A stretch of 64,000 bases of DNA, taken from NCBI RefSeq assembly GCF_016792905.1, contig NZ_JAEULP010000056.1, positions 53,555 to 117,554 on the forward strand, in the 5' to 3' direction. Under the pieces are notes generated by a model. The model made no database searches. It was not told the origin of the DNA and worked only from the letters and a program-made list of their open reading frames with translations. This stretch comes from Tabrizicola sp. (GTDB taxonomy: Bacteria; Pseudomonadota; Alphaproteobacteria; Rhodobacterales; Rhodobacteraceae). The position numbers and the translations under genes are program-made. Below, in pieces: positions 4,103-64,000 of the stretch (position 1 is the first letter of the stretch; the number at the start of each line of letters is the position of its first letter).

Positions 4103-4144
4103 GAAGACCCCGGGCCACCAACTTCCGGGCGGCCCGGGGTCTTC
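4103..4144 (+). other. Intercistronic hairpin after the binding-protein gene
   Basis: A perfect 14-bp stem, GAAGACCCCGGGCC (4103-4116) with GGCCCGGGGTCTTC (4131-4144), closes a 14-nt loop. It begins 4 bp after the binding-protein stop codon and ends 13 bp before the first permease start. No T-tract follows, so it is more likely an mRNA 3'-end stabiliser or partial terminator that keeps binding protein in excess over membrane components, as is common in sugar ABC operons. Confidence 0.75.
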
Positions 4145-4157
4145 GGGAAAGGGACGG

Positions 4158-5880: not shown

Positions 5881-5883
5881 CCC

Positions 5884-6936: not shown

Positions 6937-7079
6937 AACTGGTTCGGGCTCCAGGTCAGCAAGCCGCGCCACCCCGGCGCCCGGCAATGCGGCAGCCTTC
7001 GCCCCCGGCCAAACCGGCAGAGCCTGGACCATTCCGTTCCCGGGAGATGTGCTTACCGGCGAGACCTTTGTGCAGCAAA

Positions 7080-7544: not shown

Positions 7545-7641
7545 CCCTATCCGGTTACACTATCGTTCATGGGTTCCGTCACCGGCACCAGTTTTGAGAA
7601 TCCTGCGCATCTGAAGGTACATTGTATCCATTCATATGCTA

Positions 7642-7666
7642 ACAAGGTCAACATTAGCGACCTTGT
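7642..7666. promoter_or_regulatory. Inverted repeat between lrp-type regulator and leucine operon
   Basis: Perfect 8-bp arms ACAAGGTC (7642-7649) and GACCTTGT (7659-7666) are separated by 9 nt. The dyad lies about 98 bp upstream of the regulator start and 63 bp upstream of the oxidoreductase start, in the only intergenic space available for divergent control. Its role as a binding site for the adjacent Lrp-family protein is inferred. Confidence 0.5.
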
Positions 7667-7729
7667 CCTTCGCGTTTCGGACTAAACTTCCGATGAGCAC
7701 TGCACGCGGATCTAGGGAGGGAGACGCGG

Positions 7730-11185: not shown

Positions 11186-11197
11186 GGAGTTGGTGAC

Positions 11198-12360: not shown

Positions 12361-12364
<4 letters not shown>
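11198..12364 (+). CDS. ivd: Isovaleryl-CoA dehydrogenase
   Basis: A 388-residue FAD acyl-CoA dehydrogenase that oxidises isovaleryl-CoA to 3-methylcrotonyl-CoA in leucine breakdown. Recognisable family segments are [52 protein letters not shown] and MLIGREMMG at the C-terminus. [11 protein letters not shown] near residue 247 matches the isovaleryl-CoA dehydrogenase position of the catalytic glutamate. The stop overlaps the start of the carboxylase gene by 4 bp. Context with both methylcrotonyl-CoA carboxylase subunits makes the assignment firm. Confidence 0.95.
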
Positions 12365-13968
<1,604 letters not shown>

Positions 13969-20954: not shown

Positions 20955-21210
20955 CCGTTGCCCCTCGGACGAGTGGATCATGCGGAAAGTTCGCCGATGC
21001 AATTTCCGTCTACCAGCCAATGAGCAGCACCTTGTCAGTTGCAAGGAGAAGTCTGATGGCGACATCCGCACTTGGATTGCACAGGTTACAAGGCAGCCAA
21101 ACATGCAGCCCGGCGAGCGTTCAGCGGTGCCCGGCTTCGCTTAGGTCACAGGCGATGACCCCGCACCGGCCTGCTCAAGCAATCAAAGTATCGAATGTGA
21201 GCCGGTCCGA

Positions 21211-29933: not shown

Positions 29934-30135
29934 GATCCCATTGGCAGCGCGAGAGCAGGCCTTCTTGAGCAGGACCTGTACCTGCACGTCGACGTATCGA
30001 ACACTCGAACGAATGGGCAAACACGGGGGCCGGGAACCTGGCCTTCGGCGGGGATGGTCAGGTTGTATCGAGAAACAAGCACCACGCCAGTTGCGCCTTG
30101 TCTGGCGCATTCCAAGGGAACAGATTCACACTGTC

Positions 30136-33737: not shown

Positions 33738-34934
<1,197 letters not shown>

Positions 34935-35190
34935 TTGGCGCACTAGGAGAGTCGGCGGGGCATTTGATATCAAGGTGGAGCTCAAGGTCGATGTCGTCCC
35001 AAGAGGCAAGCACACGAAACGGGCAGCACCGCGCTGCAGGCGAATACCTAAGTACGCACCTGCCGAAATGGGGTAATGTCCTCAAGAGTCGGCTGCGATC
35101 TACCCTTCGGGCTTGAAAGGACATTTTCCAGGGGCTAACCAGATCAGGCAGACTGCCATCGATGCAACTCCAAACCATGGTTGCCCCTTG

Positions 35191-38100: not shown

Positions 38101-38403
38101 AATACGGCCGGACAAAGCTATGTGCTGACCAACGGACCTCGCAGTTACCATCTGCGCTTTGTCCCACGGCGGTTCCGGATGTGGGGCCTGATGTTGCGCG
38201 CGGGCCTCCTGGCCCCGCGCTACAAGGCGCTTCGGGCGTCCGTCGGGGCAGATTGGGCTGCCAATATCGCTGCCTACCGGTCCCCGGACTGGTGGGCCGC
38301 AACCTTCCGTCGCCCAACGGACCAAGCCGGATCTGCCGCTACCGCCCCGACGCCCTTTCCAGACGCCATTGCGTCACCCCAGAAACAGGCAGAAAAGATA
38401 TGA
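35191..38403 (+). CDS. Tandem GlfT2-like galactofuranosyltransferase, two GT modules, first module apparently degenerate
   Basis: About 1070 residues made of two homologous halves. Each half opens with the same phrase (MHVLQTTLLPKTGLPE at 1; LHVLQSTLLPREDLPE near 437) and then LSTDTFFGSFYxxYW. The second half keeps all GlfT2 landmarks: MDDDIVLDE, WWFCILP, IRGDDFEYG and GVWHEPF. The first half has LADDILLDE, WWFCILP and LRGDDFAYG but GIWRNRA, so the first Asp of DDD and the metal-binding His are replaced; it also lacks the long C-terminal extension. The first half may therefore bind acceptor without catalysis. The gene follows glf. A TTG start at 35113 would add 26 residues, and neither start has a clear Shine-Dalgarno. 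Confidence 0.83.
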   Translation: MHVLQTTLLPKTGLPEALYLRLSNPANRPALPLPTARANLGIPLEKGDLLSTDTFFGSFYHSYWKAFTSIGDVAVVVGFRGRGKVRVFEDTGDEILLLCEYELLASKPQRHLIRFRTAGIDTGLINGASSCRLYVEVEAQSSSEVQSIDFVTEIAVSRGVHLSIGISTFNDTNSGAGSQIATILPALVRLAESDPTLNPVHLVNHGPPFTQPAMLAALDSPAVRLSSPAAGPEAPGGLARTLATARAAPEGATHHLVLADDILLDERLIQRAQRFLDYATSDLVLGSAMLDVQFPVRLCMSGAMLAANGQLRMNGQETDVSMVGGLRQITTPTRVDYCPWWFCILPLAPVAATPLPQGPFLRGDDFAYGLDQQQRGIPSLCLPGLGIWRNRAMTLPQGCQTGPSTDDDDCTYDLANRFMPLTSAQGVRRNGATSGRLHVLQSTLLPREDLPETLFLRAIPPRRHGDLVPRSVKSGTAAIRLDPGNILSTDTFFGSFYRAYWQAYTVVRDLAVMVEMAGTARVRIFEETGHGANLIAEDRFRCATPCRFLVDIRSSEVTQWPGEAEIWPSRLFVEVEADETTDVHAIDFITSDAPKRRVTLSIGLCTFNQEHFFARTLCRVARLAASSDAICAVHVVNQGAPFKSDAIRALLNAPKIQAIEQRNLGGCGGFTRTLVEELANPAPASHHLMMDDDIVLDERMILRALRFLNYADREIALGAGMFDILRPHIMYEAGAFLRTDNSIHAYCHDVDLSDPAQLWHFNTPVKTDYNAWWFCILPVERSRTLALPAPVFIRGDDFEYGQRLALDGVPTVTLPGIGVWHEPFYAKPSGWQEYYDLRNRLIFGATYADKVRQLPPLDVIGMITDAILTHNYMAAELRMKAVQDFLRGPRALFARDTEQIHESVMSLAKGNAPEKLDASWKQRPLTPRRPRPGSLRGLVMDQVKSALRTGFGPLWRNSDAVLMDVEAHPGNTAGQSYVLTNGPRSYHLRFVPRRFRMWGLMLRAGLLAPRYKALRASVGADWAANIAAYRSPDWWAATFRRPTDQAGSAATAPTPFPDAIASPQKQAEKI

Positions 38404-47704: not shown

Positions 47705-47926
47705 ATGTTCGAAGCAATCCAACTTGCCGAAGTCGTCAGCACGATCTTCTACACTGTCCTTGGCGTCTGCCTGATGGCGCTGTTCTGGTGGCTCCTGACC
47801 CGCATGGCGCCGTTTTCTGTCATGCGCGAAATCGAGCATGACCAGAACATTGCTCTGGCCATCCTGATTGGAGCGATCTTCCTGTCCCTGGCCATCATCA
47901 TCGCTGCGGTTCTGCACTCGTCATGA
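47705..47926 (+). CDS. DUF350 family membrane protein
   Basis: A 73-residue protein with two hydrophobic helices, VVSTIFYTVLGVCLMALFWWLL and ALAILIGAIFLSLAIIIAAVL, separated by REIEHDQNIA. This two-helix unit matches DUF350 (YjfL-like), which in E. coli lies in the yjf operon with a PspA homologue. The ATG at 47705 gives the natural N-terminus and an 8-bp gap from the upstream stop. The stop overlaps the aminopropyltransferase start by 4 bp. Confidence 0.75.
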   Translation: MFEAIQLAEVVSTIFYTVLGVCLMALFWWLLTRMAPFSVMREIEHDQNIALAILIGAIFLSLAIIIAAVLHSS

Positions 47927-49461
47927 TCCGGGAAGGCAGCGGCCAGCGCGAGGTCTGGCTCCTGGTTGCGACCTTTCTGGTAGCCCTCGCCGGACTGATC
48001 TACGAGCTGATCGGGGCGACGCTCTCCAGCTACCTCTTGGGCGATTCCGTCCGGCAGTTCTCCTTCGTGATCGGCATCTACCTTGCGGCCATGGGACTGG
48101 GCGCCTGGGTGTCACGCTTTGTCTCGGACACGCTGGCAGGGTTCATCTGGGCGCAAATTGCTCTTGGAATCTTCGGCGGATTCATGGCGCCAATCCTGTT
48201 CTTCTCCTACGCGTTCATGGGCGAGGTCAGCCTTCCGCTCCTCCTGAATCTTGTCATCGTGGGCTCGCTGGCGGGTATGGAACTGCCGCTGATTGCGCGC
48301 CTGCTGAAAGAGATCGGCCTACCTCAGTTCCGCTTCGAGAATGTGCTGAGCTTTGACTATGTTGGCGCCCTGGTCGCCTCGCTGATCTTTCCTCTGCTGA
48401 TCGTGCCACAGCTAGGCCTCATGTCGGCAAGCCTTGCCTTTGGGGCGCTGAATCTCGGCGTGGCGGGGCTCTCGCTCTGGGTCTTTCCGCAGGCAGCGAA
48501 GAAAGGCACCGTTGTCGCGTTGGGATTGGCCATGGCCGCAACGCTGACGGCCCTTGTCTACTCCGAACGCCTGGTCTCGGTCAGCGAAGCGGCACTCTTC
48601 GAGGATGACGTGGTCCTATCGCAGGACACCTCTTATCAGCACATCACGCTAACCCGGTTCCGCGACCGCTTGCGGCTGTTCCTCGACAACTCCATCCAGT
48701 TCGATAGCCAGGACGAGTACCGCTATCACGAGATGCTGGTCCACCCGACCATGACCCTTGCGCCACGGCGCGCGCAAGTGTTGATCCTGGGCGGGGGCGA
48801 TGGGCTTGCCGCGCGCGAGGTATTCCGCCACCCCGACGTCCAGGCGGTGACGCTGGTGGACCTCGACCCCGGGGTTACCGAACTCTTCCGGTCCCATCGC
48901 GACCTCGTGGCCTTGAACGGAGCTGCGCTGAACGATCCGCGACTGACCATCGTGAACATGGACGCCTGGAAGTATCTGGAAATCGCGCAGGAAAGTTTCG
49001 ACGTGATCATCGCCGACCTGCCTGACCCGAAATCCATCGCACTGTCGAAGCTGTATTCGGCCGAATTCTATGCGCTTGCCGTCCAGCACCTCTCGGCGCA
49101 AGGGGTAATGGTCGTGCAGTCCGGCTCGCCGCTCTTTGCCCGGCAGGCGTTTTGGTCGGTGGCCCATACGATTGCCGCAACACGCAATCCGGTGGCGCCA
49201 GGCCAGAACCTTTGGACCCTGACCTATCACACCTGGGTGCCAAGCTTCGGCGACTGGGGATTCGTCATGGCGGCGCTCCGCTCGCCATCCGACCGACCGC
49301 TTTCTCTGCCCGAGGGCCTGCGCTACCTGACGCCCGAGATCTGGGCCCAGGCACAGGTCTTCGCCCCCGATAGCTCCGACATTCCTGCCGAGCTAAATTC
49401 GATCCGGAGCCATGCGCTCGTTGGCTTCTACAATGCCGGCTGGGACGCCTGGTTTCGCTGA
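47923..49461 (+). CDS. Membrane-anchored spermidine synthase-like aminopropyltransferase
   Basis: A 512-residue protein. The first ~210 residues contain about six or seven transmembrane helices (VATFLVALAGLIYELIGATL; FSFVIGIYLAAMGLGAWVSR; and others). The C-terminal ~300 residues are a spermidine-synthase fold with LGGGDGLAAREVFRHP (binding decarboxylated AdoMet), VTLVDLDPGVTELFR, MDAWKYLE and IIADLPDPKSIALSKLYS. It would transfer an aminopropyl group to an amine at the membrane. The AdoMet decarboxylase that makes the donor is encoded convergently and overlaps its 3' end by 34 bp. Acceptor unknown. Confidence 0.85.
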   Translation: MIREGSGQREVWLLVATFLVALAGLIYELIGATLSSYLLGDSVRQFSFVIGIYLAAMGLGAWVSRFVSDTLAGFIWAQIALGIFGGFMAPILFFSYAFMGEVSLPLLLNLVIVGSLAGMELPLIARLLKEIGLPQFRFENVLSFDYVGALVASLIFPLLIVPQLGLMSASLAFGALNLGVAGLSLWVFPQAAKKGTVVALGLAMAATLTALVYSERLVSVSEAALFEDDVVLSQDTSYQHITLTRFRDRLRLFLDNSIQFDSQDEYRYHEMLVHPTMTLAPRRAQVLILGGGDGLAAREVFRHPDVQAVTLVDLDPGVTELFRSHRDLVALNGAALNDPRLTIVNMDAWKYLEIAQESFDVIIADLPDPKSIALSKLYSAEFYALAVQHLSAQGVMVVQSGSPLFARQAFWSVAHTIAATRNPVAPGQNLWTLTYHTWVPSFGDWGFVMAALRSPSDRPLSLPEGLRYLTPEIWAQAQVFAPDSSDIPAELNSIRSHALVGFYNAGWDAWFR

Positions 49462-52200: not shown

Positions 52201-53022
52201 CTACCCCTTGAATGCCGGATCGCGCTTCTCCGCAAAGGCGACTGACCCCTCGCGGAAATCGTCGGACCGGATCATCTGCTCGTAATGCGGCATGTCGCTG
52301 CGACCAACCCAGGCACGGCGGACCGCCGCATGCGCCTCTTCGACCGAGACATGGGCATAGCGGCGCATGTATTCCTTCAGCGCGACCGCGACCAGCGGGG
52401 CGCCCTGGGCAATGATGGCAGCGACGGTGCGGGCGTGTTCCAGCAGTTGGTCGGCCGGTACGACATCGCGCACAAGGCCCCAGTGTTTCGCCTCGTCTGC
52501 AAACATCTTCCGGCCGGTCAGGATCAGCTCCATGGTCACGTTGAAGGGAATGCGGTGATGCAGCTTCTGGATCGCACCGCCGTCGGGCAGGAAGCCGCGC
52601 TGCATTTCCGGCAGCCAGAAGTAGGCATCCTCGGAACAGACGATGACATCGCCGCCGAGGGCCAGTTCCAACCCGCCACCGATTGCTCCACCAGCGACTG
52701 CAACGACGACGGGTTTGTATAGTCCGAAGTACTCCGGCAAACCACCCAGACCGCCCGGCCCGAGGTCGAAGCCTGTCTCGTCGTTCTGGCTTTCACCGGC
52801 TGCGAAGGCTTTCAGATCCCAACCGGCCGAGAAGATGTTCTTGGCATTGCCCTCGCTGTAGAGAAGCCCGACCCGAAGGCTGTCATCCTCGTTCAACCGC
52901 TTGAAAGCGTCATACATCTGTCGGCTGAGGGTGAGATTGATCGCGTTGACCGGCGGGCGGGCCATGGCGACTTCCATGACGGCACCGCTGACCATCACAT
53001 TCACCTGGCGTGTTTCACTCAT
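52201..53022 (-). CDS. Enoyl-CoA hydratase/isomerase family protein (CaiD-like)
   Basis: A 273-residue crotonase. RPPVNAINLTLSRQMYDAF opens the fold. FSAGWDLKAFAAGE (the usual AGxDL with Trp) and VAGGAIGGGLELALGGDVIVCSEDAYFWLPEMQRGFLPDGGA give the oxyanion hole and the acid residues. This resembles carnitinyl-CoA dehydratase (CaiD) and related hydratases. The ATG at 53022 is preferred because an upstream extension to 53295 is not conserved-looking. It forms an operon with the acyl-CoA synthetase and is divergent from a LysR regulator. Confidence 0.85.
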   Translation of the reverse strand: MSETRQVNVMVSGAVMEVAMARPPVNAINLTLSRQMYDAFKRLNEDDSLRVGLLYSEGNAKNIFSAGWDLKAFAAGESQNDETGFDLGPGGLGGLPEYFGLYKPVVVAVAGGAIGGGLELALGGDVIVCSEDAYFWLPEMQRGFLPDGGAIQKLHHRIPFNVTMELILTGRKMFADEAKHWGLVRDVVPADQLLEHARTVAAIIAQGAPLVAVALKEYMRRYAHVSVEEAHAAVRRAWVGRSDMPHYEQMIRSDDFREGSVAFAEKRDPAFKG

Positions 53023-53119
53023 CTTGGGTTGCCCGAGCATATGTCCAATACCCCTATTTCCACGAGCAAACGCAGCTGGCACAATCTCGGATCGAGTCAT
53101 TCTGTCATGAAGGAAATTC

Positions 53120-54046
53120 ATGTTGAGATACTGGAAGGACATACCGCCGCTGAAATCGCTATTGGCGCTTGAAGCGGTCGCCCGGCACGCCAGCTTTTCA
53201 CAAGCGGCGGAAGAATTGAATGTCAGCCAGTCCGCCATCAGCCACGCGGTCAACACGGCGGAATCCTTCCTGGGGGCGGTTCTGGTCGACCGCACGACCC
53301 GGCCGGTCAGTCTTACGGCAGACGGTCGGACCTACATCGCGACGCTGGCAAGCTGCCTGACCCAGCTTGCCACTCAGGGCCGCGCGCTGCGCCCGGTGAA
53401 ACCACGCAACACGCTGACGATCTCCTGCAACCTCGCCTATGGAAACTACTGGCTGATGCCGCGCCTGAAGTCCTTTCACGAGACCTGGCCAGATCTTCAG
53501 GTCAATCTTGTGACGACATACCAGGGACTTGCCTCACTGGACGACGGCATAGACATCGCCGTGCGTTTTGGCGATGGCAACTGGCCGGGCTGCATCTCGC
53601 ATCTGTTGCTCCGCGAACGTATCCTGCCAGTGGCGACTCCGGACTACATTGCCCGGCACGGGAAAGTGCGGGAGCCGTGCGACCTTCTGGTCCACAACCT
53701 TCTGCACGCCGTATCGGTGGAACGGTCCTGGTATGACTGGACACAATGGTTTGAGCACTTTGGCATTCAGAGCCCTGCCTTGCCGGGGCCAAGTTTCGAC
53801 AACCACCTCTTGATGATGCAGGCCGCACTCGCCGGGCGGGGCGTCGCCCTGGGCTGGGTTGGCACAGCATCAGACTTTCTCCAACATGGGCAGTTGGTCA
53901 AAGTTCTGGATCAACCTGTCATTCTGCCCACTGGTCTCTATGCCGTCACCCGCGCGGGGCGCGATCCTCACGTCGCGCCCTTTATCGAGTGGATCACGGC
54001 TATGGCGACCGCGGAGGCGGAAGGGATCACCTGCCCCTTCCTTTAA
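53120..54046 (+). CDS. LysR family transcriptional regulator (GcvA-like)
   Basis: A 308-residue regulator. The N-terminal helix-turn-helix reads LLALEAVARHASFSQAAEEL and NVSQSAISHAVNTAESFLGA, with RTTRPVSLTADGRTY following. The C-terminal substrate-binding domain has FHETWPDLQVNLVTTYQGL, DIAVRFGDGNWPG and AGRGVALGWVGTASDFL, as in GcvA-like members. AAGGAA precedes the ATG. It is divergent from the crotonase and acyl-CoA synthetase genes across 97 bp, so it probably controls them. Effector unknown. Confidence 0.93.
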   Translation: MLRYWKDIPPLKSLLALEAVARHASFSQAAEELNVSQSAISHAVNTAESFLGAVLVDRTTRPVSLTADGRTYIATLASCLTQLATQGRALRPVKPRNTLTISCNLAYGNYWLMPRLKSFHETWPDLQVNLVTTYQGLASLDDGIDIAVRFGDGNWPGCISHLLLRERILPVATPDYIARHGKVREPCDLLVHNLLHAVSVERSWYDWTQWFEHFGIQSPALPGPSFDNHLLMMQAALAGRGVALGWVGTASDFLQHGQLVKVLDQPVILPTGLYAVTRAGRDPHVAPFIEWITAMATAEAEGITCPFL

Positions 54047-54920
54047 CAGACAAGAACCCTCTGGCGCTGGATTGGAAAGAGATACAATCCTGTCCGCTAT
54101 CGGCCCGCAGCTGCCTCTCGATGGTCGACAGTTCAATTGCGGCTTCGCGCCCAAGTACCGGCTTGCCGGTGCCGCTCGTGCGGCAACAAATCCTGGATGC
54201 TCCGCTCCTGCCGAAGTTCGAGCCGTGCGCCAGCAAGCCAAGGCCGATCTTCACAGAGGGACCCGCAGATCGGGACATCAAGTCATTCCAGCCAGTACAG
54301 TCAGCACCGGCCTGTTCTTGGGGTGCTGCTTCCCTGATCTGGCAAATTTGCTTCCCTGATATGCCGATTGGTTTCCCTGTTCCCGGCGAGCAGCGAAGTT
54401 GCTCGTAAGTTACGGAATAGGCGCGGTGCTTCAGGACGAAAGGCGCCCGAAGGGCCCGCAAACTTCGACTTTCCCCGTCATTTCCCTGTTCTTGCGATCG
54501 AGGCAACCGGAACGGGGCTTGGTGTCAGCAGAGACTCGATTGGTGTTCTGCGGGATTATTGGTAGCGAATGGCGTCTCCCTCGCGAATTGACCATGGCAA
54601 CCCCCGAAAAGGGGGGCAAATATCCTGGTGGAACGGAAAGAGCAGAATAATCGAGGGGTGGCTGGCGGAGGGGATGGGCCTGACATCCAACCTTCTCCGT
54701 CTGCTAAGTCATTGATTTGCAATGACACACCTTAGTCCAATTCTGAGCTTCACTCTGCGGCTGACATAGTTTGCTGCGCCCAAAACGCTGAACGAAAACA
54801 GCCGCGATGCTCTCATAAGTTGTTGTAGATCGCCCGACCTCGCGGCTAGTCTGTTCTTCGTGAAAAGGGCGTTCTGGAACATTTAACGCGGATGTTCCCA
54901 TTTGATTTCTTGAGGCGTGC
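54047..54920. other. Gene-free, repeat-containing region left of the helicase pair
   Basis: 874 bp in which no frame looks like a conserved protein. It includes four TTCCCTG copies (54330-54488), a small GC hairpin CCCCC-GAAAA-GGGGG at 54601-54615 and an AT-richer stretch from 54700 that should hold the promoter of the GHKL-helicase gene. The texture suggests remnants of a mobile element, but no transposase fragment was identified. Confidence 0.5.
54330..54488. repeat. TTCCCTG short repeats
   Basis: TTCCCTG occurs at 54330, 54352, 54373 and 54482; the first three are spaced 22 and 21 bp, with related TTCCC variants in between. About two helical turns separate the regular copies, as in multiple transposase or regulator binding sites at element ends. 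Meaning is inferred. Confidence 0.45.
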
Positions 54921-57900
54921 ATGGATGTTCGCAACCACGAAACCGAACTGAAGCAGCTCGCCGAGTTCGTTCACGACGAGTGCCGGAAGCGCCTTAAGGC
55001 CTACGAAGCGCAGCCGCGAGACGCGGCCGAGCATTTCGAGACCGAGAACGAAGTTCTGTCTGGGGGATACGCATACCGTCAGTTGTACGAACTGGTGCAG
55101 AACGCAGCCGACGCGATCCTCGAGGCCGCGGAGCCGCAAGGACGAATTCACGTCCTTCTCTCCCCTCACCGGCTTGAGGCAGCCAACACCGGGGCCGCTC
55201 TGGACGAACCGGGGATTGTTGCGCTTCTTAATGCGCGCAGCTCACCAAAGCGCGGCAATCAGATCGGTAGATTTGGGATCGGGTTCAAGTCGCTGCTCAA
55301 ACTGGGCGGTCGCGTTGACCTGACATCCAAATCAGTAGGACTGCGCTTCGACCCCGAAGCCTGCCGTGATCGCATTCGTGGACATCTTGGTTTTGGCAAG
55401 AGCGCACCCGCCCCCGGCATGCGACTTGCCGAGGTACTGGACCCATCTGCCGAAAGCAGTCCACTGTTCAGTACAAACAAGTGGAGCTGGGCGACCACGG
55501 TCGTCTCGGCGGAGATATCGGATGACGCAGCATTTGATCGACTGAGCCAGGAAATTGCCGATTTTCCGGCAGAGTTCCTGTTGTTCTTACCCTCGGCTAT
55601 CACCCTCGAGCTTGAAGTTGAAGGCGCTGCACCCCGTCTCTTGACGAAACGGTTTGAAGACGGTTTTGCCGTTGTGGGCGATGGAACCAATGAGGCCCGT
55701 TGGAAGATATTCGAGACTTCGGTCAAGGTCGACAGCGAGGCTGCGCGCTCCGATGCAACTCACATCCAGGCGAGGGAACAGGTGCCATTGGCTTGGGCAG
55801 TGCCGGTCGGTGGTCGTGAACAGGCTGGTCGCTTCTGGGCGTTTTTCCCGACCGAAACGCAGAGCCGAACTTCGGGCATCCTTAATGCTCCCTGGAAGCT
55901 CAACAGCGACAGGACCAACCTGATCAGGGGACCATGGAACGAAGCGATAATGCAGGCAGCCGCTGATCTGATCAGCGGCTCACTCACTGCGCTATCGACA
56001 CCCGAGGACTGCGGGGCCGCAGTAAGTGCGTTCCCGCGTCAACCGGAACGGCAGGACGAAATCGCCGTCCCCCTTGTTCGGTCTCTTTGGGACAAGATCG
56101 TTTCGTCCGAGGTCCTGCCTGACGTGAACGGTATCCCGCGCAACCCAAGCAAGCTCGTTCGGCATTTTGTTGAGAACACGGAAATCTGCAGATCCTGGGC
56201 CGACCTAGCAGGCGCGGATGCGAGAGAACGTTATCTGCATCCAGACTGCTACTCCTCCGAGGCAAGGGTCTCGCGTTTGAAGGCGCTCGTCGAGGAAGCA
56301 AGACGCCGGGAGATGCAGGTCCTCGCGAAGCCCCCCGCCGATGAATGGCTGAACTGCGTCGCGAATACCGATCTCGCTCTGGCGAGAAATGCCTTGGCGT
56401 TCGTTGGCCGCCTCCTGCAGGAAGGCTATAAGCACGGGTTGTTCAGCGTTCCTGAGGCCCGCCTGATCCCAACTACTGAGGGGAGGCTGGCCACCCCCTA
56501 CGAGGCAGTCATCGTATCCGGATCGGCTCCTCCCGCAGGCTTCCGAGCAGTCGCTGAAGAAATCGCTTCGGACAAACAGAGCCGAGACATCCTGATAAAT
56601 CAGTTGCACGTCACCGAACTGGCGGCAGCGGCATGGTCCGACATCCTGGAAACATCTCTGACGACAGCGGAGGAATCAGATCAGCCTGAAGACTGGGAGA
56701 ACTTCTGGCACAACATTGCCTCTGCACCGCAGGAGGCGAGGCAAGAATACATTGATGACCTTGATCTGGATCGGCTCAAGTTTCGTGCGACTTCGGGAAA
56801 GTGGACAAGCCGGAACCTATTGATCGTACGGGAGAACCCAGAGGGTTTTCCCCAGGACCATGTCATGAGTCCGCAGTTCTCGCAGGAGATCAAAGCCACG
56901 GCTCCAAATGAATGGCTGACGGAATTCCCCTGTGCCGAGGAGTCTGTGGATCGGGGCGATCCAAATCTAACGGACTACTTCCGCTTGTTGAGTCCTGCCT
57001 TCGATGAAATCTGCAGGAAGCACTCTGGCAGCACGCCGCGATACTTGCCCAAAACTTCCAGCTACTCGCTTCGAATGCCAGCCGGCTGGCGGCTTCTCCC
57101 TTTGCTGCCTGCAGCAAGCTCCGCTAAATTGAGCCAGGTGCTCTTGAGTGCAATCACGCAAACTGCCGAAAGTGCGTTCAAAGTTACTATCGTCCACCCG
57201 ACACGTCCGGATTCATACCCAAAGGTGACAGCGCCGCATCCGATCTACTTCTGGCTCACGGAGCATGGACGGATACGTGTCGGCAATCTCGTGGTGCCGT
57301 TGAAGTGCATCTCCCCCAAAATCTCTAGAGCCCTGGTTGGAGCTGAAGTCTCCGGCCTTAAGGCTGTAGACGGCTTTCTCCAAGAGAGAGACGCTGAGAC
57401 GGACCTAGGATCACGCCTTGCTTGGCAAAGGTCCAAATTCACGCGCGAAGCCGCTGCGCGTTTCTGGGAAGAGGTGTTCAAATCACTCGCGGAGCGAAAA
57501 AGCGACTTCAAGGCACTACGGCCAGTTTGGGAGATAGCGCATGCTGACGGAGCTATTCCCGCTACCTTGCCCAGCGCCGACGGCACGCTCCCATTGTCGA
57601 AAATCTATGTGACGTCCGATCCGAGCGTAAGTCACGATCTCGACGATGGCAGGATTGTCTTGTTGTCCCAGGATGTTGCTTCGGCATGGGTAGCGGCCGG
57701 CGCAATCGAGCTTGGCACTGGACTCTCGATGTCATTCGAGAAGCGTATGTCCGTGCCGTCCTACCTTCTAGATCTTATCCCAGAGTTGGTGGCAGCACCG
57801 GAAGGCGCTGAGGCCCTCAGGACGGTACTGGCAGTCTGGGTAACTGGCCTTGAAGAAATCGTAGGGCCCTCGAAGCGAGCGGTCACAGTCGGTATGGACG

Positions 57901-59627
57901 CCGACGGCGCATTACTCATCGATCGTGAGCAGTTTGGCAGTCGTGGCCGGAAGGAAGGCATCGAACTGGTGCTTCGGTGTCTTGCGCGCCACGGGATCGT
58001 CCGGGACGGGGTAGATCTGGAAGAAATCCTTTCCCGGATAATGGATCGGCGGTCAGACGAGGCACGCAAGGCAGTTCGAGATGAAAGAACCCTTGAGCTC
58101 AGGTTGCTGAAGGCGATCGGAAGTGATCTCGGGTGCCTCCTCGAGACCCTCACTCCTGCTACCCGTCAAGCCGTTGGGAACGATCTTGATCCGGAGAGCC
58201 TTGCCCGACTGGCAATGGCGGTTCACGGACCGACGCTGCTCAGCAAGCTCAGGAACGCACTCGAGCTTCAAGGACTTGCACCTCCCAATCGATGGGGCGG
58301 TGAGCAATCGCGCATGTTTGTGCAAGAACTTGGCTTCCCGATTGAGTTTGCTTCTTCGGCCGGCGGCCGCAGAGATGCAGAAGTCTCCGTAAGTGGGCCG
58401 ATCCACCTTCCAGCGCTTCATGATTACCAGGAAGATATCTTGACGAGCATAGGCACGCTTCTCGGCACAGGCACTGGCCGCCGCCGAGCCGTGGTCAGCC
58501 TGCCTACAGGCGGAGGGAAAACGCGTGTTGCTGCTGAGGCTGTCGTGCGGCTCGTCTTGAAGGGAGAGGGACGCCGAATTGCACTCTGGATAGCCCAGAC
58601 CGATGAACTGTGCGAGCAGGCTGTCCAGGGCTTTCGCCAGCTCTGGGTCAATGTGGGAGAGCCCGGCGAAGATCTTCGTATCGTGCGGCTATGGGGTGGT
58701 CAGCGAAACCCGTCACCGCCGGAGGGGGACGAGCCAACCGTAGTGATCGCAAGCATCCAGACCTTGATCAGCCGTAGCGGTCGCCCGGAACTGGCATGGG
58801 TCGCTCAAACCGGGATCATCGTCATAGATGAGTGCCATCACGCGATAACCTCGAGCTACACCGACCTGTTGCGATGGCTCGATGTTCAGGTCGGCAGCGA
58901 GCGAGCACGGGAGCGTGAAGCGCCCGTTCTCGGCCTCAGCGCAACGCCTTGGCGCGGATACGATGAGGACGAGTCCGAGCGGCTTGCAGCGCGTTTTGAC
59001 CGTCGCTGGTTTCCGGCCGACCAGCCTGGCCTTCACGACAAGCTCTCCAAGATGGGCGTGCTCGCCGACCGAAGCTATCGCCCCCTTCGTTACGACAGGC
59101 CGATTACCCTGACAGAACGCGAACAGCAACACGTCGATACGTTTGGGGAGCTTCCTGACAGCGTCGTGGATCGGATGGGCGAAGACTCCGACCGGAACGA
59201 TCTGATCATTGATGCAATCGCGAACAGCAAGGCAGAGTCTATCCTCCTCTTCGCCAACTCCGTCGCCCACGCACAGTACCTTGCAGCGAGACTACACTTG
59301 GCGGGTTGTCCTGCAGCCGCTGTCAGCGGTCAGACGGACCGACTTGCGAGGCAGCATTTCACGCGACGGTTCCGTGCCGGCGATCTTCGAGTGATCTGCA
59401 ATCACAGTGTCCTGACGACAGGTTTCGATGCACCAAAGGCGGACATGGTCCTGATCTCAAGGCCCGTTTTTAGTCCTGTTCTTTACATGCAAATGGTGGG
59501 CCGCGGTCTTCGGGGCCCAGCGAACGGTGGCACCGCTCACTGTGAAATCATGACAGTGGAAGACAACATACTCAATTTCCGAGATCGCCTTGCATACCAC
59601 TTCTGTAGGCGCTTTTTTGATGCTTGA
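54921..59627 (+). CDS. GHKL-ATPase (sacsin/Hsp90-like) fused to SF2 helicase; candidate defence protein
   Basis: A 1568-residue protein. The N-terminus is a GHKL ATPase with the N-box LYELVQNAADAI (~56-67) and glycine loop GRFGIGFKSLLKL (~114-126), of the type found in sacsin-like proteins. A long region (~350-1150) has no recognised domain. The C-terminal third is an SF2 helicase: Q-like LHDYQEDIL, Walker A LPTGGGKTRVA (~1193), DECH (VIDECHHA, ~1303), LGLSATPWRG (~1337), and motifs V and VI in CNHSVLTTGFDAPKAD and MQMVGRGLRG (~1525). It overlaps the downstream helicase-nuclease gene by one base. Codon use and GC appear lower than in the rest of the window. Sensing plus DNA or RNA translocation is inferred; it is not any named defence gene I can identify. 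Confidence 0.8.
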   Translation: MDVRNHETELKQLAEFVHDECRKRLKAYEAQPRDAAEHFETENEVLSGGYAYRQLYELVQNAADAILEAAEPQGRIHVLLSPHRLEAANTGAALDEPGIVALLNARSSPKRGNQIGRFGIGFKSLLKLGGRVDLTSKSVGLRFDPEACRDRIRGHLGFGKSAPAPGMRLAEVLDPSAESSPLFSTNKWSWATTVVSAEISDDAAFDRLSQEIADFPAEFLLFLPSAITLELEVEGAAPRLLTKRFEDGFAVVGDGTNEARWKIFETSVKVDSEAARSDATHIQAREQVPLAWAVPVGGREQAGRFWAFFPTETQSRTSGILNAPWKLNSDRTNLIRGPWNEAIMQAAADLISGSLTALSTPEDCGAAVSAFPRQPERQDEIAVPLVRSLWDKIVSSEVLPDVNGIPRNPSKLVRHFVENTEICRSWADLAGADARERYLHPDCYSSEARVSRLKALVEEARRREMQVLAKPPADEWLNCVANTDLALARNALAFVGRLLQEGYKHGLFSVPEARLIPTTEGRLATPYEAVIVSGSAPPAGFRAVAEEIASDKQSRDILINQLHVTELAAAAWSDILETSLTTAEESDQPEDWENFWHNIASAPQEARQEYIDDLDLDRLKFRATSGKWTSRNLLIVRENPEGFPQDHVMSPQFSQEIKATAPNEWLTEFPCAEESVDRGDPNLTDYFRLLSPAFDEICRKHSGSTPRYLPKTSSYSLRMPAGWRLLPLLPAASSAKLSQVLLSAITQTAESAFKVTIVHPTRPDSYPKVTAPHPIYFWLTEHGRIRVGNLVVPLKCISPKISRALVGAEVSGLKAVDGFLQERDAETDLGSRLAWQRSKFTREAAARFWEEVFKSLAERKSDFKALRPVWEIAHADGAIPATLPSADGTLPLSKIYVTSDPSVSHDLDDGRIVLLSQDVASAWVAAGAIELGTGLSMSFEKRMSVPSYLLDLIPELVAAPEGAEALRTVLAVWVTGLEEIVGPSKRAVTVGMDADGALLIDREQFGSRGRKEGIELVLRCLARHGIVRDGVDLEEILSRIMDRRSDEARKAVRDERTLELRLLKAIGSDLGCLLETLTPATRQAVGNDLDPESLARLAMAVHGPTLLSKLRNALELQGLAPPNRWGGEQSRMFVQELGFPIEFASSAGGRRDAEVSVSGPIHLPALHDYQEDILTSIGTLLGTGTGRRRAVVSLPTGGGKTRVAAEAVVRLVLKGEGRRIALWIAQTDELCEQAVQGFRQLWVNVGEPGEDLRIVRLWGGQRNPSPPEGDEPTVVIASIQTLISRSGRPELAWVAQTGIIVIDECHHAITSSYTDLLRWLDVQVGSERAREREAPVLGLSATPWRGYDEDESERLAARFDRRWFPADQPGLHDKLSKMGVLADRSYRPLRYDRPITLTEREQQHVDTFGELPDSVVDRMGEDSDRNDLIIDAIANSKAESILLFANSVAHAQYLAARLHLAGCPAAAVSGQTDRLARQHFTRRFRAGDLRVICNHSVLTTGFDAPKADMVLISRPVFSPVLYMQMVGRGLRGPANGGTAHCEIMTVEDNILNFRDRLAYHFCRRFFDA

Positions 59628-62600
59628 TGCAGCGCGCGACTGCCCTGCAGGAAGGAATGCCAATGATCGCCGGAGCAAGACGCTTGCCCACCATGCATGT
59701 TTCAGTTCGTGTTCCATGGCACGACGGTGGCTGGGCAGGGAAAACTTGCGCAAATCCGCGTGGGAACACGTCCTGCCTGATCCTGCCGAGAGTAGCAGAA
59801 AGCAAGGACGACAATTTCGAGACGAGCATCGCTGGTGCCGCTTGGGATCCCGACGGCGCTCGGCTACCGGCATGTGCCGCAGAACGCGGGGCATTCATGG
59901 CGCCCTTCGGCTATGCTCGGAAGGTGCGTCATCCCTACAGTCACGACCCTAGATACAAGCACTTCCAGGAAAGCTACTTCCACCATCCGGCCTATTCCGC
60001 TGCGGCAGTTCCTTTCGCCTGGATGATGAAGAATTCGGATGACGGGATCCCTGATCGTGCCAAGGCCTACAAGATCGACTTCCGACCCGAACTCGAACCC
60101 GACCTCGAATTCGATAAGCTCTGGGTTCAGGAACGCCGGAACCAGCTTGCGATGCTCGACACGTTCTTCGGCGCAATCACACCCGAGGAATCTCTTGTAT
60201 TCTTCTATGCCAAGCGAACACCGCTGACGGATGACGGGCGGCGAGTCATTGTCGGCATGGGTCGCGTTCTCAAGGTAGACCCTTCTGTCGAGTACATCTA
60301 TGAGAAGGGCGCGCCATCGGACGCGATGCGCTGTGTCCTGTGGGAGCGCAATCTGCATCATTCGATACGGCCAGACATCAAGGACGGCTTTCTTCTTCCC
60401 TATCACGAACTGATTGATCTGGCCGAAAAAGACCCCAGCATCGATGTGTCGAGCCTTGTGCTTCATGCGCCCGAGGAACAATGGGACGCATTCTCAATGG
60501 GCACCGAGCATGTGACGCATGATCAAGCGATCACGGTTCTGCTCGCCTGCGCGTCACTGCTTGAGCGGCTTGAACGGGTAGTTCCAGGCAATTGGTCCGC
60601 CGCTCGGGGCTGGGTCGACACTCAGCTGAACAGGATCTGGCGGCTTCGGGGTGCCTTTCCCGGCCTTGGCTCAGCACTGACAGCTTTCGGATTGACTCAC
60701 GGTACTCTCGTCGCACACGCCGTTGGTCAACAGCTGCACGCCGACGGCTCCCAGGAGGTGCGCGATCCTTGGCCGCTCGTTGAAAAAGTGCTTCACGAGC
60801 CGACCCTGCTCGCTCTCGATTTGGCAGCGACAATTGGTTCGACCGCGGCAAAACTCTGGGGCAGCCTGAAGCCAGAGCGGCGGGCGCTGCTCAAGCTGCT
60901 TGCCAGATTCGAGATTACTGCCGATCAGGCGACCCGGTGGTTTGTAACGGAAGAACGCACGCGGGTTGGCATCACAGCTACCGACGCAGAAATCTTAGCC
61001 AACCCGTATATTTGCTTCGAAGACGACCGAGGGCGCATCGACCCAATTTCGGCAGCAGTGATTGATCGTGGACTTTTCCCTGACGCGACAGTCGCGACGG
61101 CGGTACCCCTGCCGGACCCCTCCCGCTGTCGGGAAGCTATTGATCCCCGTCGTGGCCGAGCCTTGATGATTTCGACGCTCGATCGCGCAGCGGGTGAAGG
61201 GCATACCTTGCTGCCCCAATCTTGGCTCGTGCAACGGGTCCGCGACCTCGATGTCTCACCCCAGTGCGCAATCGGTGCCGATTGGGTCGAAGCATTTGGC
61301 ACATTCCTAAAGGCCAGGATAGCCGTCTCCCTTATGGCGGATGGCACCCCAGCATGGCAGCTCCAGCAGTATGCAAAGTCACGCGACCTTATATCGGCCC
61401 GTGTGAAACGACGCCTTACGGGTAAACGACATCCTGGCGAGCACGACTGGCGAGCACTTATCGACCAACAGCTTCCGCCGTTTGCGGCGGCGAGCGACCC
61501 CGAGACGGAGGAGCTTGCGCGGGTCGAAAAAGCCAAGGCGCTAGAGGAGATATTTCGGTCTCGGTTTTCGGTTCTGATTGGGCCTGCTGGTACTGGCAAG
61601 ACGAGCCTATTGACGGCCCTCCTGTCTTTGCCATCGGTCGCTGCCGGAGGGGTACTCCTGCTCGCCCCGACAGGGAAGGCGCGGGTTCAGATGCAGAGGC
61701 GGGCCAAAAATGCGCAGGCCTACACACTTGCGCAGTTCTTGCTGGCACTCGGCCGCTACGACCCACTGACCGGAGCGTATCGAGTTACCGATGACGCCAA
61801 CCGAGAGCGCGGATTCAAGACTGTAGTCATCGACGAGTGCTCTATGCTGACCGAGGACCAATTGGCGGCGACCCTTGACTCGATCGAGACAACATCGGTC
61901 GAACGCTTGATCTTGGTGGGCGATCCAAGACAGCTCCCGCCAATTGGGGCGGGCCGCCCCTTCGTCGACATCGTCCGCTACTTGAACTACGACAGTGCAA
62001 CGGCGAACAGACAGACGGCGGCGGGATATGCTGAGCTCAAGATGGTGCGTCGGCAAACCGAGCAATCAGTCGCGGCAGGACAGCCGCCAGCAGCACGCGA
62101 CGACATCATTTTGTCAAGGTGGTTCGGGGGAGAGGCTCCGGATCCTGGTGCTGATGAAGCATGGGATCGTCTAGCGATAGGCAAGGCCATAGGAATTCGA
62201 GCGGTTCGTTGGGAGGGCGACGCCGACCTCCAGACAACGCTTCTTGCCGAGGTCAAGGCGACGACGCGGAGCATTTCTCAAAAGAAAGGGTTCGACGATG
62301 AGGGGGACGACACCACTTTCGAGATCAGCCTTGGCGGGCGTCCGTTCAAAGAAGTCGTGTACTTCAATCTGTCCCGCCTAGAGAAAGATGCCGAGGGCGC
62401 CGAACGGCGCAGTGGAGGTGGCGCTGACGCTGAAACATGGCAAATACTCTCACCAGTGCGCGCTGGTGAGACCGGCGTGGATGGCCTAAACCGCTGGCTT
62501 CAGAAAACTTTCCGGCAAAGGGCGCGTGTTTGGGCCACGCCCAATTCTTTTGGCTCGCGTAAGGTCTTTAAACCGTTAGGACCTCAGGGAATTCTTTATG

Positions 62601-63481
62601 GTGACAAGGTAATCAATCTGATCAACAAAAAGCGATCTTGCTATCCCAAGGTAGCTGACAGCTATTTGGCAAATGGGGAAATTGGAATTGTAATTGGGCA
62701 GTACAAGGGTGCGAAAGCATCCTACAAGGGAAGTCCCTGGGAGGCTCAGGTTGAATTTTCGTCGCAGCTCGGCTACCATTTTAGCTTCCAAGCTCGCGAT
62801 TTTGGTCAAGATGGCGAGTCGCCTTTGGAGCTCGCTTATGCATTGACCATTCACAAGGCCCAAGGCAGCGAATTTGGTACGACTTTCATCGTTATCCCGA
62901 ATCCCTGTCGGCTTCTTTCACGTGAACTGCTCTACACGGCACTGACGCGCCAACGTGAAGAGGTCGTCCTTTTTCACCAAGGAGACCTTAGAGCTCTTCT
63001 GAATCTGTCTCTATCCGAGCATTCCGAGACCGCCCGTCGGCTTACCAATCTGTTTTCCGATCCCAAGCCTGTCGAGCACCTCGGGTCTTTCCTCGAAGAA
63101 GGCCTAATTCACCGCACCACGCGTGGCGAGCTAGTGCGCTCAAAATCGGAGGTGATTATTGCCAATCTTCTTCATGGTCTCGGGATCACGTATGCTTATG
63201 AACAACCCTTTACCGGGCAGGACGGCAGCGTCCGATACCCTGACTTCACGATCGAAGACGCTGAGACTGGTCGGCGCGTGTTTCTGGAGCACCTTGGGCT
63301 GCTGTCTGAACCAGCATATCGACGGCGGTGGCTGGCAAAGTTGAATTGGTATCGCTCTCAGGGGGTGTTGCCGGAAGAAGAGGGTGACGGAGACGCAGGA
63401 ATTCTAATGACGACCACCGAAGAGAAGGGCATCGACTCTGCGGATATTGAGCAACGGCTGCGCATGCTGCTAGGGCTATAG
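59627..63481 (+). CDS. RecD-like SF1 helicase fused to PD-(D/E)XK nuclease; candidate defence protein
   Basis: A 1284-residue protein starting inside the upstream stop (TGATG). The N-terminal part begins with a Cys/His/Trp-bearing segment (RVPWHDGGWAGKTC, ~28-41) that I do not recognise. The helicase core has Walker A GPAGTGKTSLL (~650), Walker B VIDECSMLTEDQL (~735), GDPRQLPPIG and AYALTIHKAQGSEF plus LYTALTRQREE (~1075-1110), as in RecD/TraA-type SF1B enzymes. The last ~120 residues look like a PD-(D/E)XK nuclease: RSKSEVIIANLL, then YPDFTIED, then FLEHLG. It presumably degrades DNA unwound by this or the partner helicase. Around 62580-62800 the DNA is notably AT-rich. Confidence 0.82.
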   Translation: MQRATALQEGMPMIAGARRLPTMHVSVRVPWHDGGWAGKTCANPRGNTSCLILPRVAESKDDNFETSIAGAAWDPDGARLPACAAERGAFMAPFGYARKVRHPYSHDPRYKHFQESYFHHPAYSAAAVPFAWMMKNSDDGIPDRAKAYKIDFRPELEPDLEFDKLWVQERRNQLAMLDTFFGAITPEESLVFFYAKRTPLTDDGRRVIVGMGRVLKVDPSVEYIYEKGAPSDAMRCVLWERNLHHSIRPDIKDGFLLPYHELIDLAEKDPSIDVSSLVLHAPEEQWDAFSMGTEHVTHDQAITVLLACASLLERLERVVPGNWSAARGWVDTQLNRIWRLRGAFPGLGSALTAFGLTHGTLVAHAVGQQLHADGSQEVRDPWPLVEKVLHEPTLLALDLAATIGSTAAKLWGSLKPERRALLKLLARFEITADQATRWFVTEERTRVGITATDAEILANPYICFEDDRGRIDPISAAVIDRGLFPDATVATAVPLPDPSRCREAIDPRRGRALMISTLDRAAGEGHTLLPQSWLVQRVRDLDVSPQCAIGADWVEAFGTFLKARIAVSLMADGTPAWQLQQYAKSRDLISARVKRRLTGKRHPGEHDWRALIDQQLPPFAAASDPETEELARVEKAKALEEIFRSRFSVLIGPAGTGKTSLLTALLSLPSVAAGGVLLLAPTGKARVQMQRRAKNAQAYTLAQFLLALGRYDPLTGAYRVTDDANRERGFKTVVIDECSMLTEDQLAATLDSIETTSVERLILVGDPRQLPPIGAGRPFVDIVRYLNYDSATANRQTAAGYAELKMVRRQTEQSVAAGQPPAARDDIILSRWFGGEAPDPGADEAWDRLAIGKAIGIRAVRWEGDADLQTTLLAEVKATTRSISQKKGFDDEGDDTTFEISLGGRPFKEVVYFNLSRLEKDAEGAERRSGGGADAETWQILSPVRAGETGVDGLNRWLQKTFRQRARVWATPNSFGSRKVFKPLGPQGILYGDKVINLINKKRSCYPKVADSYLANGEIGIVIGQYKGAKASYKGSPWEAQVEFSSQLGYHFSFQARDFGQDGESPLELAYALTIHKAQGSEFGTTFIVIPNPCRLLSRELLYTALTRQREEVVLFHQGDLRALLNLSLSEHSETARRLTNLFSDPKPVEHLGSFLEEGLIHRTTRGELVRSKSEVIIANLLHGLGITYAYEQPFTGQDGSVRYPDFTIEDAETGRRVFLEHLGLLSEPAYRRRWLAKLNWYRSQGVLPEEEGDGDAGILMTTTEEKGIDSADIEQRLRMLLGL

Positions 63482-63521
63482 AGAGGTATGCATTGACGGC
63501 ACGAAAGAGATTGCTCCCGTA

Positions 63522-63686
63522 TCACTCCTTAGTCCGCCAGCCCCTGTTCGGCGAGCAGTCCCCCACGTTCGTCGAACCGCCGAAGCGGAGCCGGAACAGG
63601 AGCACTGCGATTTCAAGGTCGTCGTCGTGCAGCGCCGACCACATCCACGGGCTGACGGCGAAGCCGCCAAGCAGGATGCTGATCAC
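63522..63686 (-). pseudogene. Possible remnant of a small membrane-protein gene
   Basis: From a GTG at 63686 a 54-codon frame reads SILLGGFAVSPWMW and LEIAVLLFRLRFGG, with a natural composition and high third-position GC. In the same frame upstream, RRISFVVALVCLAVTF precedes an in-frame TAA at about 63718. This suggests an older, longer gene interrupted by a stop codon. No family is recognised and the evidence is thin. Confidence 0.3.
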
Positions 63687-63854
63687 TGACCCTTGGCTCC
63701 AATCGTCGGGAACGTCTTAGAATGTGACCGCGAGGCAAACGAGTGCCACGACGAAAGAGATTCTGCGGAGCGTATCGAGACACGGCACCAGCGGCAGGAC
63801 CGCTGCCTGGGTCTGGCGAGGACGCTCTGCGCATCCAGCGTCGCCACACTGTCA

Positions 63855-63902
63855 ATCGGCGCGCAAAACTGACCCCTTATCGGCGTCCAAAATTGACCCC
63901 CC
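63855..63902. mobile_element. Two 24-bp direct repeats resembling an IS21-family end
   Basis: ATCGGCG-x-x-CAAAACTGACCCC (63855-63876) is followed at a 24-bp period by ATCGGCG-x-x-CAAAATTGACCCC (63879-63900). Repeated TGACCCC units are typical of the multiple transposase-binding sites at the ends of IS21-like (istA/istB) elements in Alphaproteobacteria. The element itself would continue beyond the right edge. 63482-63854 contains no intact gene. Confidence 0.5.
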
Positions 63903-63914
63903 TTGTGGTGTCGA

Positions 63915-63972
63915 GATCAGGGCCTGAGCCGACGGAGCTGATCACAGAGTGGAGGCGGGTCAGGCCCTGATC
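63915..63972. repeat. 13-bp inverted repeat at the right edge
   Basis: GATCAGGGCCTGA (63915-63927) and TCAGGCCCTGATC (63960-63972) are perfect complements separated by 32 nt. The element follows the TGACCCC repeats directly and may be part of the same mobile element or a hairpin that blocks read-through. Confidence 0.55.
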
Positions 63973-64000
63973 GGTGTCATGCGCGGTTTTTGAAGCGCCA

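Follow-up and report, generated by a model that had tools for sequence, protein, structure and literature searches.

The window analysed here, a 64,000-nucleotide stretch of Tabrizicola sp. at the right end of contig NZ_JAEULP010000056.1 (C56, 117,554 bases, from a 3.79-Mb assembly of 91 contigs), carries two adjacent genes whose products are referred to below as P0001 and P0002. The pair is a genuine, rare and mobile two-gene unit. Judging from protein families and genomic setting, the explanation that we consider probable, by a modest degree, is that P0001 and P0002 form a mobile, prophage-associated module acting against phages or, more broadly, against invading DNA. P0001 combines a sacsin-type GHKL ATPase with a RadD-like superfamily 2 (SF2) helicase in a single polypeptide, while P0002 is, by profile match, a full-length member of the PADLOC candidate family PDC-S68, with a RecD2-like superfamily 1 (SF1) helicase core and a putative nuclease domain.

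Both open reading frames (ORFs) lie on the forward strand and lack internal stops, with the lengths given in an earlier note on this DNA: P0001 occupies 54921–59627 (1568 residues) and P0002 occupies 59627–63481 (1284 residues from the ATG at 59627). That note also described the genes as translationally linked through TGATG. The overlap exists, at 59625–59629, but its ATG is probably not where P0002 begins. Considering that several P0002 homologues have their first residue at the position matching residue 13, and that the sequence GGAAGGA (59650–59656) stands six bases 5' of the ATG at 59663, the latter is probably the true start, which yields a product of 1272 residues (59663–63481) and a gap of about 35 nt between the two genes.

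In P0001, residues 1–460 (54921–56300, forward strand) correspond to a GHKL/Hsp90-like module. The sacsin-type GHKL model NF047352 matches at 59.7 bits, over a cut-off of 50 (E 2.8e-16), and a profile of four sequences covering residues 1–1150 matches yeast Hsp82 at 2.9e-4. Residues E57, N61, D64, G116, F118, G119 and G121, and with them the motifs ELVQNAADA and GxFGxGFK, are invariant in all four aligned sequences. The C-terminal residues 1151–1568 (58371–59624, forward strand) contain an SF2 DECH-box helicase core, detected with the Pfam families ResIII (68.9 bits) and Helicase_C (51.1 bits); its Walker A lysine is K1200. This core is RadD-like, matching the RadD structure 6jde at 1.5e-15 and the RadD profile at 1.8e-29, although the score of 102.5 bits is far under the equivalog cut-off of 720 bits. 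The fusion of an Hsp90/sacsin-like ATPase to an SF2 DECH helicase, proposed from the letters alone, is thus well supported. No Pfam match was obtained for the intervening residues 461–1150 at E ≤ 5. We also compared both proteins with the individual protein models of PADLOC-DB 2.0.0. The TmtA model matched residues 11–451 of P0001 at 7.7e-54, covering only positions 7–428 of its 1538, and the helicase part gave partial matches to mREase_IV (1.8e-16), PbeA (1.3e-15) and REase_I (4.8e-10).

Residues 21–1279 of P0002 match the model PDLC05065 (PDC-S68) from position 4 to position 1216 of 1221, with an E-value of 0 and 1585.2 bits. The N-terminal domain (about residues 13–612; 59663–61462, forward strand) is conserved across an alignment of 72 family sequences. 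It has no Pfam match over the cut-off, and its profile found nothing useful in the PDB, where the sole RecD match lay at the Walker A end. The helicase core (residues 634–1116; 61526–62974, forward strand) is matched by the RecD2 model TIGR01448 at 4.4e-54 and 183.8 bits, below the equivalog cut-off of 500 bits, by PDB 3e1s at 1.7e-17 and by the PADLOC models typeIV_RecD (8.5e-40) and RecD_like (2.5e-30). P0002 also matched GajB at 0.0041. The residues K658 (Walker A), D736, E737, Q769 and R1108 are each present in 50 of 50 aligned sequences.

Further towards the C-terminus lies a putative PD-(D/E)XK nuclease domain (63104–63376, forward strand) with the motifs E1175, P-D1206-F, E1221-H-L-G and K1238. 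D1206 and H1222 are conserved in 50 of 50 sequences and E1175, E1221 and K1238 in 49 of 50, and the acidic triad E1175, D1206 and E1221 appears in the expected order. Weak partial matches to the PADLOC models PDC-S69 (2.4e-6) and HEAT_CxxC_PDDEXK (0.005) point in the same direction. Searching the PDB at E ≤ 1 with a profile of 50 C-terminal sequences gave no match, nor did the window's own domain match any Pfam family at E ≤ 5; the domains of two relatives reached TPD only below threshold (0.13–0.17). Given these null results in PDB and Pfam, the nuclease call, which we regard as probable, is based on motifs. Of the composition suggested for the second gene in the earlier note, the RecD-type helicase is well established, while the nuclease is indicated by the motifs and the weak PADLOC matches.

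Both genes are scarce. Of 292 genomes sampled from the order, 7 match P0001 at 1e-30: one has the full-length copy of the window, one a deleted copy (G263), and in five the match is confined to the helicase. Its N-terminal 460 residues gave a match in one of the 385 genomes sampled from the class at 1e-20; at 1e-10, three of the 398 sampled from the phylum matched, two of them over a short length. The same phylum sample contains P0002 in 5 of its 398 genomes at 1e-60, and five plasmid records carry it at 1e-40. We then considered the best 80 of 483 places related to P0002 in a named genome collection, and searched loci L011–L110 for three pieces of P0001 with tblastn at 1e-4. P0001 or its remains were present in 4 of the 80 P0002 loci. 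In Roseibium aestuarii (L031), a full P0001 (85% identity overall; 90, 76 and 95% over the three parts) stands directly upstream of P0002. In an Acidimicrobiia metagenome-assembled genome (MAG; L105), an ORF of 1509 residues with 34% identity over the full length (35% in the N-terminal part and 41% in the helicase) is found just upstream of P0002. The other two loci hold remains: in Pseudogemmobacter bohemicus (L032), an in-frame deletion has left residues 1–102 and 1529–1567 of P0001, and in Cereibacter ovatus (L041, identical to L021), residue 478 of P0001 runs out of frame into residue 496 of P0002.

Wherever an intact P0001 is followed by readable DNA, P0002 comes directly behind it (three of three: the window, L031 and L105), and these cases span two phyla. 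A third full-length homologue, in the IMG/VR contig L026 (84% identity), was left out of this count because its contig stops about 200 bases after P0001, in what by eye is sequence of the insertion sequence (IS) type. That contig was also the only find when more distant P0001 relatives were sought in viral contigs. It is 36.7 kb long; the stretch of interest, 1–8625, has the P0001 gene with, by eye, a type I restriction system alongside. Further copies, one in Roseibium and one on an Aminobacter plasmid, were uninformative.

The two ends of P0001 and its middle have evolved very differently. Variability is spread over residues 401–1150 (56121–58370, forward strand) and peaks at residues 641–880 (56841–57560). 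Between the window and L031, the nonsynonymous substitution rate (dN) for residues 1–400, 401–640, 641–880, 881–1150 and 1151–1568 was 0.046, 0.143, 0.164, 0.110 and 0.029, respectively, at a synonymous rate (dS) of 0.70–0.99 across these segments; residues 641–880 have therefore changed 3.6 to 5.7 times faster in dN than the ends, at similar dS. The ends are under strong constraint. In the comparison with L026, identity falls to 49–59% at residues 641–880 as against 86–99% at residues 1–400 and 1121–1568, with dN 0.349 and dS 1.04 in the former and dN 0.019–0.036 and dS 0.24–0.25 in the two ends. In L026, a distant allele has taken the place of residues 641–880. This pattern is what a recognition segment would show, and a weakly constrained spacer would fit it too. 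An apparent fast evolution of P0002 residues 973–1092 was traced, in a comparison of ten sequences, to one replaced segment, which the window has in common with Cereibacter and which does not go along with P0001 being present.

The surroundings of several P0002 relatives connect the pair to prophages. In Roseibium (L031) and in four phage contigs (L027–L030), a prophage tail/endolysin module adjoins P0002. Among the nine proteins scanned against PHROG in these five loci, those encoded 3' of P0002 on the opposite strand were tail proteins (phrog_4271, up to 1110 bits), peptidase/endolysin proteins (phrog_17373 and phrog_894) or tail-fibre-like proteins. In L031, the pair sits between this module and genes that by eye are of host type (a TRAP transporter and TetR). 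The contigs of L028–L030 begin in or at P0002, and the upstream side is visible only in L027, where P0002 stands without P0001 and, by eye, behind an alcohol-dehydrogenase-like ORF. In the window, the stretch at 63546–63832, downstream of P0002, is a prophage remnant from the endolysin/peptidase side, with 70.9% identity to L030, 69.2% to L027 and 80.3% over 117 bases to L031, and the matching DNA overlaps the phrog_17373/phrog_894 genes of these loci. The remnant is cut short by the IS21 end described below. Since the match falls on the endolysin side of L030 and L027 and, in part, of L031, descent of the window copy from this prophage-module arrangement is most likely.

This setting could also mean that the pair is cargo that serves the prophage itself, in superinfection exclusion, prophage replication or packaging, rather than cell immunity as such. 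We consider this improbable. The tail and endolysin genes beside P0002 in five loci, together with the remnant kept in the window, are what such a role would lead one to expect. Nevertheless, in other clades the relatives of P0002 have defence-type helicases around them, as described below; of the 80 IMG/VR loci listed, 8, two of them cut by contig ends, have a relative that extends beyond the helicase core; and 2 of 50,697 phage records contain one at 1e-20. Superinfection exclusion is, moreover, itself a form of defence.

The neighbours of P0002 relatives were collected as adjacent ORFs on the same strand, of 250–1300 amino acids, with gaps of at most 300 nt and up to two per side. Of 79 loci, 43 contributed a total of 78 such proteins, and 70 of these, from 41 loci, were scanned against PADLOC. 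At 1e-15, the models DrmD, DrmA, DpdE, HmaA, BrxH and PLD-helicase were each matched by 10 of the 70 neighbours, and 276 PADLOC families were matched in total. As a control, 70 of the 198 ORFs from 20 arbitrary 20-kb regions, in 7 genomes of the window's phylum, were scanned in the same way; they matched eight families, with one protein each, and none of the six models above (0/70), in a set that is smaller (31.5 versus 49.3 thousand residues), less diverse and drawn from the window's own phylum. NCBIfam at 1e-6 identified HsdR in four of the same neighbours and the BREX protein PglZ in two. The neighbours of P0002 relatives are thus rich in defence-type SNF2 helicases. The RapA-type SNF2 helicase model was matched equally often, by 10 of the 70 neighbours, and a DrmD-model match is therefore no proof of DISARM.

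GHKL genes also recur beside P0002 relatives. A GHKL profile detected them in 11 of the 80 P0002 loci (L031, L032, L034, L041, L066, L071, L088, L101, L103, L104 and L105) and in none of the 20 control regions. Two of these loci, L066 (a Chlorobiaceae MAG, 3050–13487) and L088 (Oceanicella, 3082–13747), lie far apart on the P0002 tree, yet both have a row of three genes, for a DrmD-like helicase, a TmtA-type GHKL protein and P0002, with gaps of -1 to 63 nt. By their domain content, these rows would represent the parts of the window pair in unfused form. In L034 (4–9605), a GHKL gene of 2531 amino acids is accompanied by a DrmD-like helicase on the other strand. It is one of several large sacsin-like genes, of 1607–2626 amino acids, beside PDC-S68 relatives, the others being at 13812–21689 in L101, 13838–18829 in L103 and 15529–20352 in L017, where it is accompanied by an annotated DEAD/DEAH helicase. 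The 2510-residue ORF of the window (22578–30110) was considered as a giant GHKL gene like that of L034 and rejected, as by eye it is a polyketide synthase, and it has no PADLOC match. On a quick P0002 tree, the GHKL label, carried by 10 rows, needs 9 changes (mean 9.7 in 500 shuffles, 142 of which were as low); this scatter fits repeated coupling and also a plain clustering of defence genes in islands.

These rows suggest a broader, still tentative view, which we hold at less than even confidence. PDC-S68 would be an interchangeable helicase-nuclease effector of the RecD type that has been coupled repeatedly to a GHKL ATPase (sacsin/TmtA-type) and an SF2/SNF2 motor. P0001 would be its compact version, with sensor ATPase and motor united in a single protein and a recognition segment that strains exchange. 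We have raised our estimate of this view slightly, since the three-gene row of L088 is the same as that of L066.

Several observations, however, weigh against a dedicated two-protein defence module, in addition to the limits of the control and the equal frequency of RapA matches noted above. The excess of GHKL genes is small: 4 of the 11 loci supplied seeds for the profile and another 3 are copies of P0001 that closely resemble the seed from the window, which leaves four independent finds (L066, L071, L088 and L104), and the 11 of 80 against 0 of 20 may reflect nothing other than defence-island clustering. At 1e-10, PADLOC matched none of three proteins adjacent to the pair in L031 and none of three in L105, the latter being a MAG contig, and the ten large ORFs of the window gave one match, to mad2, which was partial (2.3e-15). 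Upstream sequence of 1.5 kb or more is available for 68 of the P0002 loci (L041 is among the other 12); 65 of them show no P0001 by tblastn at 1e-4, and three (L031, L032 and L105) show P0001 or remains of it. Finally, P0002 is intact in L032, where P0001 is deleted. The search for enriched defence genes around homologues that the earlier note had recommended thus gave a split result, with enrichment near P0002 relatives (10/70 versus 0/70 in the control) and almost no defence match among the pair's own neighbours.

Two further explanations draw on these observations. If P0001 and P0002 were independent defence genes, each acting alone and placed side by side in a cargo site of a prophage or island, the frequent absence of P0001 and the survival of P0002 without it would be expected, and so would the five plasmid relatives of P0002, none of which has a P0001 match beside it. 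The label PDC-S68, in which we read the S as standing for a single gene, also agrees with this. We nonetheless regard independence as unlikely, given that P0002 lies immediately behind P0001 in all three intact cases, in two phyla and at identities down to 34%, with a gap of at most about 35 nt, and that each gene occurs in about 1% or fewer of the sampled genomes, which makes chance adjacency unlikely. The small sample thus shows that P0001 depends on P0002 for company and not the reverse, and the unit seems to be obligatory for P0001 but optional for P0002. Among the plasmid relatives, that of the Vibrio fluvialis plasmid pIDH5335-1 (L018, 11962–16960), a mobilizable IncC plasmid, is followed by a Qnr-family pentapeptide gene.

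The second is a host module for DNA repair or recombination, built from a RadD-like and a RecD2-like helicase and unrelated to immunity. Both helicase cores are indeed nearest to the repair enzymes RadD and RecD2/RecD, and the genes scanned beside intact pairs are, apart from the one partial match, not defence genes. Such a module is nevertheless very improbable, considering that the scores are far below the equivalog cut-offs of both enzymes, that the distribution is patchy and the GC content low, that the context is one of prophages, and that the neighbours of relatives are of the defence type.

GHKL ATPases are able to act as clamps, and the helicases RecD and RecD2 belong to the SF1B group, which moves with 5'-3' polarity. 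Under the favoured explanation, an anti-phage module, P0001 would be the sensor and clamp-translocase. ATP binding would cause its GHKL head to dimerise and to shut around DNA or a DNA-protein complex, possibly one made by the phage, with the fast-evolving middle region choosing the target. The RadD-like SF2 motor would then travel along the captured DNA or remodel it, and hand it over to the effector P0002. The latter would open DNA from ends, gaps or forks with its RecD2-like 5'-3' SF1B helicase, and its C-terminal PD-(D/E)XK nuclease would cut the strands. P0002 may be a general-purpose effector that also works with other partners or alone. We infer DNA clamping, recognition by the middle region, the hand-over and the nuclease activity from the protein families involved, and the helicase polarity from RecD and RecD2; contact between the two proteins and protection against phages are proposed in addition.

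The earlier note had proposed a candidate undescribed defence system. Recurrence in two phyla, the patchy distribution and the position of relatives near defence-type helicases and prophage genes are in keeping with a defence role. The word 'undescribed' is not supported for the system as a whole: since P0002 matches PDC-S68 over its full length, half of it is already catalogued, as a candidate. In the literature searched, which takes in only a minority of subscription papers, no description of P0001 or of the pair was found. The PDC-S68 model covers P0002 end to end and is silent on P0001, and its name did not appear in the same literature. 'Phage defence candidate' (PDC) is a gene label of PADLOC (PMC11514479), and the term is absent from PMC9252829. 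The earlier note did not recognise the pair as a named system, and among the PADLOC protein models none of the named systems (DISARM, Gabija, Zorya, Dnd/Pbe, type I/IV restriction and others) is matched full-length by both proteins.

The general theme was described in 2008, when operons of restriction-modification (R-M) type combining a GHKL ATPase (MORC/paraMORC), an SFII helicase and a nuclease of the RE fold were reported, along with an S5-domain motif specific to the MORC/paraMORC family (PMC2292703, from the portion of the paper available). P0001 has both the GHKL domain with intact motifs and the SFII helicase of these operons. In the window pair, however, the two are fused and accompanied by a RecD-like SF1 helicase-nuclease; neither 'sacsin' nor 'RecD' appears as a word in that paper. 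A DNA methylase is frequent, although not universal, in the MORC/paraMORC operons; in a Pfam scan of P0001 and P0002, those two proteins only, no methylase was found. Fusions of GHKL and HEPN domains in R-M neighbourhoods, and the HEPN domain of sacsin, are covered in the accessible part of PMC3710099.

Among individual proteins, TmtA resembles P0001 in its GHKL N-terminus, and TmtA-type proteins directly precede the P0002 relatives of L066 and L088. The match ends, however, after about 430 of 1538 positions, where P0001 continues into its SF2 helicase; no relevant paper was among the matches listed for the name. RadD shares the SF2 core of P0001, which differs in scoring below the RadD cut-off and in being fused to a GHKL module. 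Likewise, RecD2 and RecD, including the PADLOC model typeIV_RecD, share the SF1 core of P0002, which falls under the RecD2 cut-off and adds a large N-terminal domain with no known match and a nuclease-like C-terminus. The division of labour proposed here is the same as that of Druantia III, with its sensor DruH and helicase-nuclease DruE (PMC13192584, as far as its available text goes). This is a working analogy only, and no Druantia model was among the PADLOC matches of P0001 or P0002 at 0.01.

On the left of the unit, 54759–54920 is a candidate regulatory region, in forward orientation upstream of P0001, conserved in L032 (90.7% over 162 aligned bases), L026 (79.7% over 148) and L031 (67.5% over 117). 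Further out, a boundary-like repeated motif, TGGCGGAGGGGATGGG(n)CCAACCTTCTCC, is found at 54663–54735 and recurs at 8893 in L026, at 5041 in L031 and at a second place in Roseibium (L116, contig C21). It resembles the 3' end of tRNA-Ser, as compared with the tRNA-Ser of L032. As regards an attachment site, a tRNA search at the motif found none, Rfam gave no family (L116, L031 and L026 at the gathering threshold; window positions 53000–64000 at E ≤ 0.1), and no flanking repeat partner was found on the same contig. The left flank had been called repeat-rich, a description that does not hold, as its 874 bp contain a single pair of 15-nt direct repeats.

On the right, the IS21-like end recognized earlier is real. 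Positions 63850–64000 match five places on Paracoccus plasmids at 77.5–83.7%, and at four of these the match falls under the istB gene of an IS21-like element; this end of an IS21-family element is cut by the contig end at position 64000, where the view of the locus stops. In L025 (6734–11865), a PDC-S68 relative breaks off after the equivalent of residue 853 beside ORFs that by eye are IstA/IstB-like, and this, together with the IS21 end next to P0002 in the window, suggests IS21 insertion at loci of P0002 relatives. As for base composition, the contrast noted earlier is partly upheld. GC content is 58.1% in the unit and 62.2% at 1–54920, and third-position GC (GC3) is 0.61–0.63 against 0.65–0.80 in four other genes, but values of 58–63% also occur in stretches of the window between 18 and 36 kb. 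Elsewhere in the window, the partial mad2 match belongs to an ORF of 512 amino acids at 47923–49461. A cluster that by eye is related to glycolipids or surface glycans (19116–21104, 21211–22581, 22578–30110, 33789–34934 and 35113–38403) appears to encode a large polyketide synthase, an aminotransferase-like synthase, glycosyltransferase-like proteins and a UDP-galactopyranose-mutase-like product.

If the anti-phage reading of P0001 and P0002 holds, the candidate family PDC-S68 gains a defined partner, and gene fusion links an Hsp90-like ATPase of the sacsin type with the processing of DNA in immunity. Residues 641–880 of P0001 would then offer a concrete variable segment in which to seek what is recognised. 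Should the more tentative view of PDC-S68 as an interchangeable effector also prove true, the pair would represent a three-motor immune system, spread by prophages and equipped with a modular target-recognition segment.

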